Origin: Planctomycetes bacterium MalM25
GTDB taxonomy: Bacteria > Planctomycetota > Planctomycetia > Pirellulales > Lacipirellulaceae
Reading direction: 5' to 3'
Assembly (NCBI GenBank): GCA_007745835.1
Contig: CP036424.1
Coordinates: 4,017,968 to 4,081,967, forward strand
DNA: 64,000 nt
Part shown: in pieces, positions 2,853 through 4,603 of the stretch
Layout of the letters: each line of letters begins with the position of its first letter
Position numbering within the stretch: position 1 is the first letter of the stretch
Notes under the pieces: model-generated
Seen by the model: only the letters and a program-made list of their open reading frames with translations
Database searches by the model: none
Told to the model about the DNA's origin: nothing
Translations under genes and position numbers: made by a program

Positions 2853-2940
2853 CCTCTCCCCGACTGGGGAGAGGCTGGGTGAGGGGTAAGACATCGCGCT
2901 GCGCGCGACCCTCCCCTAGCCCCTCCCTGAAAGGGAGGGG
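2853..2940. repeat. Palindromic repeat element, two hairpins (family copy 1)
   Basis: An 88-bp intergenic element with a hairpin at each end. The left one is CCTCTCCCC-gact-GGGGAGAGG (2853-2874) and the right one is CCCCTCCCT-gaa-AGGGAGGGG (2920-2940), with GCGC-rich sequence between. Length and plan match the 89-bp element inside uvrA at 20393-20481. It resembles REP/MITE-like palindromes common between bacterial genes. It lies just upstream of the TTG start at 2969, so it could also affect that gene's 5' UTR. Confidence 0.75.
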
Positions 2941-2968
2941 GATTTGAAACCGCTTCACAGGCAAACCG

Positions 2969-4603
2969 TTGGTCTCCTTCAGCTCGGTCCGTGTCGTGCT
3001 CGGCGTGGCGTTGCTTCTCATAAGCGTCGGAGCCTCCCTCCGCGCCGACGACTCGCCGCCGCGCCCGAATCTCCTCGTGATCACCGTCGAGGGCCTCGAC
3101 AACGTCGGCGTGCCGGCGGAGGGGCTTGAGGAGGTGCTGTTCGATCCGGAGGTCCGCGCCCGCGTGACGCCGAACCTCGAACGGCTGGTCGCTAAGGGAG
3201 CGCGGTTCGATAAAGCATATGGCCTGCCGATCTCCCTGAGGGACCTCGCGGAGCACGCCCGCTTGAAAGGGAAGTACGACGCAGAGGGGGCCAAAGCCGA
3301 CGCAAGCAAACCGCCACCTCACGATCGGCAGCTCTACTCCTGGTTCTCACCCTCTCGCGAGCCGCTACGAAGTTGGATCAAACAGGTCCCTAAGGATCCC
3401 ACAATCGCCAACTGGGAACTCCTGGCCGACTCGCAAGGCTCCAGCGCAACAGCCATGGCGGTGGCCAAAGGAATAGGTAAGAGCGAGGGGGCAGGAAGGC
3501 CCCGTTTACTAGTTGCCCAGCTAGCCAGTCACAGCGTCTCGCCATACCTACCAGGCGTGTTCTTCGATCGCTTCCCGCTCGATCAGATACGCCTCCCCGC
3601 CGACCCCAACGCCCGCCGGGCGCTCGCCGAGCGGATGGGCGCCTATGATTTCGACGCTACTGACCTAACTGAAGACGAAGAACTCCGGTGGAAGCAAGCG
3701 ATCCAGGCTTGGCTCGCCGGGGTGTGCAAGCTCGATTATGCGATCGGGACACTTGTCGATGCGCTCGAAGCAAGCGACACCCCCTGGGCCGTCGCGTTGG
3801 TCGCTTCACCTTTGAAGGACCTCTCACCCGAACAGGCGATTGGCGAAGCCGGCGCTCGCTCCGGTCTGGTCCTCGTCGCTCCGGGCGTCACGCAACCGGG
3901 CCAGCGCATCACCACGCCGGTTGAGCTGTCCAGCCTCGCTCGGACCCTCGCCGAGCTTGTTGATATCGATCCGCATGCTCTCATGGATTCGGAGCTTCTC
4001 AAGACCCAACCCTATGACGGGCCAGTGAACCCTTTCGCATCTCTCCCCGGAGAGAGCCTGTTGCCACTGCTCGCGCCCGCGGGCGAGCGGTACGACATGG
4101 TCGCCATCACCTCCGCCGACGGGTCGTACGGCGTCCGCTCGCACCGTTTCCGCCTCGTTCATACCGACGACTCGCAATCGCTGTACGACCTCGAGAAAGA
4201 CCCCGAGGGTTTCTACGACCTCCTTGATCCGGCGTACGCGGCCAAGGTGGAGCGCTTTGCTCTGAGCGGCACGCAAGTCGAAGCCGTGCGGAAGTGGCTC
4301 ACGCGCCAGCTCTACTACCGCTTGACGAGCGGCGACGCTGAAAAGGTGGTCCTCGATAAGCTGGCGAGCTTAGCCGGCTTGGACCCGGACGAGGACAACG
4401 GGAACAAGCCGCCGGCCGTCCTCCCGGGCGACTACAACCGCGACGGGCGCGTCGATGCGGCCGACACCACCATCTGGCGAGATCAGAACGGCAAGGAAGT
4501 GCCGGTCGGGTCGGGGGCCGACGGGGACTTTGATGGGCGGGTCGACGACCTGGACAACATTATTTGGAGGATGAACTACGGACGACGGGCCGAAGCCCCC
4601 TGA
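2969..4603 (+). CDS. Sulfatase-fold pseudoenzyme with dockerin-like tail
   Basis: 544-residue exported protein starting at TTG; no upstream ATG gives a better signal peptide. After the signal peptide (1-26) the protein follows the iduronate-2-sulfatase-like fold: PNLLVITVEGLDNVG in place of the metal-binding strand, TPNLERLVAKGARF, a FDRFPLDQIRLPAD segment, WKQAIQAWLAGVCKLDYAIG, LVLVAPGVTQPGQR, and a C-terminal LYDLEKDPEGFYDL. The key catalytic parts are missing: there is no C-x-P-x-R formylglycine site, no DD metal pair, and no SDHG motif (the equivalent region reads ALVASPLKDLS). The last 55 residues hold two dockerin-type calcium loops (DYNRDGRVDAAD and DGDFDGRVDDLD). It is probably a non-catalytic binding or scaffold protein. 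Recruitment by the dockerin-like tail is inference, since planctomycete dockerins have no proven cohesin partner here. Confidence 0.82.
   Translation: MVSFSSVRVVLGVALLLISVGASLRADDSPPRPNLLVITVEGLDNVGVPAEGLEEVLFDPEVRARVTPNLERLVAKGARFDKAYGLPISLRDLAEHARLKGKYDAEGAKADASKPPPHDRQLYSWFSPSREPLRSWIKQVPKDPTIANWELLADSQGSSATAMAVAKGIGKSEGAGRPRLLVAQLASHSVSPYLPGVFFDRFPLDQIRLPADPNARRALAERMGAYDFDATDLTEDEELRWKQAIQAWLAGVCKLDYAIGTLVDALEASDTPWAVALVASPLKDLSPEQAIGEAGARSGLVLVAPGVTQPGQRITTPVELSSLARTLAELVDIDPHALMDSELLKTQPYDGPVNPFASLPGESLLPLLAPAGERYDMVAITSADGSYGVRSHRFRLVHTDDSQSLYDLEKDPEGFYDLLDPAYAAKVERFALSGTQVEAVRKWLTRQLYYRLTSGDAEKVVLDKLASLAGLDPDEDNGNKPPAVLPGDYNRDGRVDAADTTIWRDQNGKEVPVGSGADGDFDGRVDDLDNIIWRMNYGRRAEAP

Follow-up and report, generated by a model that had tools for sequence, protein, structure and literature searches.

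The gene at positions 2969 to 4603 of the window, the whole 64,000-nucleotide stretch of DNA analysed here, probably encodes a secreted pseudoenzyme that descends from an S1_7-type carbohydrate sulfatase and has been retained rather than lost. The active site is lost, and the remaining fold, the signal peptide and an EF-hand-like C-terminal tail are kept, likely by purifying selection that was weakened but persisted through most of the gene's history. The product would be exported. Its tail may bind calcium and anchor it to the surface or to protein partners, as in the many further proteins that end in such a tail, and in place of catalysis the dead body may bind a glycan or a partner. The genome (4.72 Mb) is that of a marine bacterium of the genus Botrimarina (Lacipirellulaceae, Planctomycetota), and the gene and its surroundings comprise the following features.

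2969..4603, plus strand: the whole gene, an open frame of 544 codons, started by TTG and with zero internal stops, for a presumptively secreted, catalytically dead S1_7-type sulfatase homologue of 544 aa (orthologues L002 and L003/L054).
2969..3046, plus strand: probable Sec signal peptide, aa 1-26, ending in GASLRA before DD (assigned by sequence inspection, from an Arg, a hydrophobic core and an A-x-A-like end).
3056..4318, plus strand: sulfatase-fold body, about aa 30-450 (AlphaFold model; VIA-align to 5fql over aa 30-390).
3089..3094, plus strand: E41-G42, at the metal-binding D-D position of active relatives (alignments).
3218..3358, plus strand: collapsed stretch, about aa 84-130, formerly with the formylglycine motif C-x-A/P-S-R, a catalytic Lys and a His (three-way alignment).
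3797..3832, plus strand: V-A-S-P-L-K-D-L-S-P-E-Q, replacing the W-S-D-H-G-W-H-L-G-E-K block (alignment).
4430..4465, plus strand: calcium-loop-like repeat 1 of the C-terminal tail, DYNRDGRVDAAD (sequence; Dockerin_1 12 bits, below cut-off; tail matches at E ~1e-16 elsewhere in the genome).
4520..4555, plus strand: calcium-loop-like repeat 2 of the tail, DGDFDGRVDDLD (same basis as repeat 1).
2853..2956, no strand assigned: copy of a dispersed GC-rich (REP-like) repeat outside the gene, with 54 matches in the genome.

The signal-like N-terminal stretch is also present in the orthologues from B. mediterranea and B. colliarenosi. The dispersed repeat ends about 12 bases 5' of the start codon, and it may bear on, or even impair, expression of the gene.

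The original prediction recognized a sulfatase-family backbone, and homology searches and structural comparison both upheld this. A search of related genomes returned two long same-genus relatives of the window protein (E 3e-55 and 3e-49), and a profile of the three orthologues hit 60 different PDB sequences (E ≤ 0.001), almost all of them sulfatases or related esterases, with 6hhm at E 1.6e-24. The window protein alone scores 19.8 bits against Pfam Sulfatase, under the cut-off of 25, a shortfall that shows the extent of its drift. Its AlphaFold model is of no more than moderate confidence, with a mean pLDDT of 57 and a core at 70-90 interrupted by low-confidence gaps; the alignments behind the models were shallow, at 4-5 rows (the window protein plus related loci, the intact orthologue included). 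Top Foldseek matches to the model were sulfatases and related phosphonate/sulfate esterases. Human iduronate-2-sulfatase (5fql), on which superposition had been proposed, proved to be the best structural match by VIA-align (Z 18.6, 269 residues, 4.4 Å), and the S1_7 ulvan sulfatase 6hhm gave Z 18.4. The predicted model thus has an alkaline-phosphatase-type fold, with S1_7 structures closest. The model of the intact B. colliarenosi orthologue was of low confidence (mean pLDDT 47) and was left out of the comparisons. Like the S1_7 sulfatases 5fql and FA22070 (6hhm), the window protein has the same fold and order of elements and a C-terminal subdomain with R-x-x-R-F-R and LYDLxxDP; unlike them, it has neither the formylglycine Cys nor the metal ligands, and it is short by about 75 residues around the nucleophile.

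The extent of active-site loss was judged against 30 homologues from related planctomycetes, in which ten positions that serve catalysis or metal binding are 93-100% conserved. Against this set, the claim that the formylglycine Cys, the DD pair and the SDHG region are all missing was borne out. The window protein keeps 0-2 of the ten residues, according to which alignment is read, any 'kept' ones lying in stretches that barely align. It has E-G for the D-D of the metal site (VEGLD), no counterpart of the C..R, different letters at the catalytic His, the stretch ASHSVSPY, VASPLKDL, with no D-H, at the WSDHG block, and E for the last Lys; its nucleophile block has suffered a net loss of about 75 residues relative to the intact orthologue. 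All ten residues are present in the B. colliarenosi orthologue (VAIDDLN, HPACNASR, TGKVWH, FHPHLPW, WSDHGWHLGEK and the final K), and one of the ten in that of B. mediterranea (VDGLG, SKRG, Cys motif absent). A simple pattern check found the formylglycine motif C/S-x-P/A-x-R in all collected homologues but one; it is present in the B. colliarenosi protein and absent from the window and B. mediterranea proteins. The residue tables accordingly describe a homologue of an enzyme family whose catalytic residues have been lost, which is one mark of a pseudoenzyme. Alkaline-phosphatase-fold enzymes are versatile, and on this general ground the window protein could still be catalytic through a rebuilt active site; that is very improbable, because neither the nucleophile nor any metal ligand nor the general acid/base residues are left, and in B. 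mediterranea the D-H of SDHG has become K-R.

Planctomycetes carry very many sulfatase genes, and the genome of the window has about 60. Nearly all of the others retain the Cys motif and the DD pair in a simple check, so that active-site loss is not habitual in this genome. One other sulfatase there (L138, G000:C1:2045800-2049700) has C-R-P-S-L, with the Arg of the formylglycine motif missing and DD retained. Another (L155, G000:C1:1988600-1991800) is a 151-codon fragment with a normal-looking Cys motif, CSKSR, and is an ordinary broken gene.

The two orthologues stand in opposite states: checked for the same loss, as had been proposed, one species shows it and the other does not. That of B. 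mediterranea Spa11 (L002:1048-2700, 550 aa) is dead, with its active site gone, its frame open and its signal peptide and tail retained, as in the window protein, to which it is 37% identical in the body. It differs from the window protein in keeping the first D of DD, in having SKRG for SDHG and in the deletions it carries. That of B. colliarenosi Pla108 (L054:5911-8253, 780 aa) is catalytically intact (CNASR, DD, HPH, SDHG and K all kept), and shares with the window protein the signal peptide, the insertion ...RAR[LV]TPNL... and a tail of the same kind, 68% identical over 62 residues. In the B. colliarenosi protein an additional stretch of some 160 residues, with no Pfam match, separates the body from the tail; it is absent from both dead copies.

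Genomic context is shared between the two sister species. In both, the gene is flanked on one side by araB (with araD and araA) and on the other by a small membrane-protein gene, pta and ackA, the names of these neighbours having been assigned by reading their sequences. The window copy lies about 6.5 kb downstream of a DNA methyltransferase gene, and the same methyltransferase gene lies beyond the ara genes in both sisters. Although pta and araB neighbour the orthologous sulfatase in the sisters (loci L021/L022), in the window genome pta has no match and araB matches distant kinases only. Within the methyltransferase (L023:2448-4388; G000:C1:4012447-4014384), residues ~331-378 match many scattered sites in the genome, some with stops, which suggests that a repeat element may have inserted in frame. 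A fourth Botrimarina genome (G003) has the methyltransferase and pta, and no such sulfatase. No further member of the group was found in 43 genomes of the family or 396 of the order, where the next nearest sequences are ordinary S1_7 relatives, and a scan of genome contigs turned up B. colliarenosi and a distant MAG (L055) and nothing else. As far as these sequence searches reach, the sulfatase group is confined to Botrimarina.

The main rival to a retained pseudoenzyme is decay in progress: selection would have been lifted here and separately in B. mediterranea, with the frame by chance still unbroken. Several observations favor it. Both dead genes have lower GC3 (0.77 and 0.75, versus 0.88 in the live gene) and protein branches 2-4 times longer, and constraint on them has, by these sequence measures, clearly been relaxed; a repeat element lies immediately upstream of the start; with some 60 other sulfatase genes in the genome, loss would be cheap; and another sulfatase of this genome, L155, is already truncated. 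We nevertheless consider decay unlikely, because the catalytic set is gone and the frame is not broken, and because two species have reached the same state. Both dead copies keep an open frame although each pair shows 18-22 gap events, none of which shifts it. In neutral simulations a frame free of stops had a probability of ~0.03-0.08 once 0.1 substitutions per site had accumulated; over the whole branch, which takes in time before the loss as well, the figure was between 5e-7 and 7e-3, depending on base composition. The joint probability that six unlinked catalytic residues are replaced neutrally and the frame stays open is ≤4e-6 at 62% GC and 3e-3 at 80% GC, frameshifts being uncounted.

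Tests of selection point the same way. A codon model rejected omega = 1 both on the branch to the window gene (2dlnL 37.6) and on that to the B. mediterranea gene (2dlnL 19.1); this is the only use made of omega, whose value is unusable because synonymous sites are saturated and it averages the time before and after inactivation. Non-catalytic columns at least 90% conserved in the 30 homologues are kept at 41 of 50 positions in B. colliarenosi, 38 of 50 in B. mediterranea and 29 of 50 in the window protein, figures that, with third positions near saturation, likewise mix the periods preceding and following the loss. Retention at these columns exceeds that at catalytic ones in both dead proteins (76% versus 10% in B. 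mediterranea, Fisher test p 0.0002; 58% versus 0-20% in the window protein, p 0.04). Between the two dead genes, identity is 60% at second codon positions (26% when shuffled) and 40% at third positions (32% when shuffled), and the two proteins share letter-identical stretches such as PGVFFDRFPLDQI. A short, recent release from selection may have occurred in either dead-copy species. A single recent deletion as the origin of the present state was ruled out by losses across the whole active site and by the second dead species. The original prediction, of a catalytically dead sulfatase-fold protein, therefore gains a second dead orthologue and a frame that has survived about 20 indels. It had also named what would mark the gene as a pseudogene, namely orthologues with an intact active site together with a recent deletion here; an intact orthologue does exist, in B. 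colliarenosi, but the loss in the window gene is old and thorough, with no recent deletion.

Whether the active site was lost once or twice depends on which tree is followed. In an rpoB tree B. mediterranea and B. colliarenosi group together (support 99), as they do in a methyltransferase tree (support 100). Since the rpoB tree nests the intact gene between the dead ones and the deletions differ, two separate losses are called for, and separate inactivations in the window and B. mediterranea lineages are, from the sequences, the likeliest history. The sulfatase tree instead groups the two dead copies (support 76%, on long branches), as would be expected had an ancestor carried both a live and a dead copy, with B. 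colliarenosi keeping the live one and the other two species the dead one. We regard this single inactivation as possible but doubtful. It gains from the topology test (AU 0.96 for the dead copies together with all columns, 0.77 without active-site columns) and from the absence of B. colliarenosi's extra 160-residue region in both dead copies. It loses from the species-tree topology not being rejected without active-site columns (AU 0.29), from the three topologies being poorly separated outside the active site (4, 4 and 3 shared derived residues), from the differing deletions, from the tendency of long, fast branches to attract, and from no searched genome carrying both copies. A dead clade was not accepted as a firm result, because the preference weakens when active-site and deleted columns are left out. 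A single inactivation would be compatible with a retained pseudoenzyme too. The stronger proposition, that within one genus a sulfatase was twice independently turned into a selected, secreted, non-catalytic protein, is put forward tentatively and is on balance rather unlikely; if true, the orthologous group would already have had a second function, in binding, while it was still catalytic.

The C-terminal tail was described originally as dockerin-like, and this holds in part. Its two 12-residue calcium-loop-like repeats share the two D-x-N/D-x-D-G-x-V-x-x-x-D loops of type I dockerins (PF00404), but its Dockerin_1 score of 12 bits is below the Pfam cut-off of 22.9. Unlike a dockerin type I, a tail of this type is a general C-terminal feature throughout Botrimarina: it resembles many tails in its own genome and relatives (E 1e-16 to 1e-11), and it also occurs on the catalytically active B. 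colliarenosi orthologue. The window genome has 32 Dockerin_1 matches and 226 first-look candidates. A search of four Botrimarina genomes for cohesins (PF00963) as partners yielded none above the Pfam cut-off, with diverged ones liable to escape it.

These results do not favor the further claim of a secreted scaffold or adaptor, one that would present a glycan-binding sulfatase fold while docked onto a protein with a cohesin. The two complete calcium-loop motifs, the signal peptide and a neighbourhood that resembles polysaccharide degradation (an apiosidase-like gene, PSD1/PSCyt and DUF1501 genes, several sulfatases) speak for such a role, and for one freshwater family a 'planctosome' built on cohesins and dockerins has been proposed (PMC6461901), so that systems of this kind would not be out of place in the phylum. 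We nonetheless consider it improbable, given the lack of cohesins above cut-off, the like tails on dozens of unrelated proteins per genome as well as on the active orthologue, and the fact that the surroundings of the old substrate pocket are the most damaged part of the protein. Being generic, present on an active enzyme and without a cohesin, the tail would mark a secreted or surface protein of this genus rather than a scaffold.

If the losses were independent, Botrimarina would offer a small, testable case of the parallel birth of pseudoenzymes. A dead orthologue alongside a live one is also a clean natural pair for studying what a sulfatase fold does without catalysis. Because 'sulfatase' genes are counted by fold, a dead member warns that gene counts can overstate enzymatic capacity. 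A literature search on inactive or pseudo-sulfatases found nothing relevant, and published cases may still exist. Two contigs from the viral collection (L123:1995-4184 and L124:1707-4244) encode sulfatase-like proteins that have intact-looking motifs followed by glycine-aspartate-rich (RTX-like) repeats.
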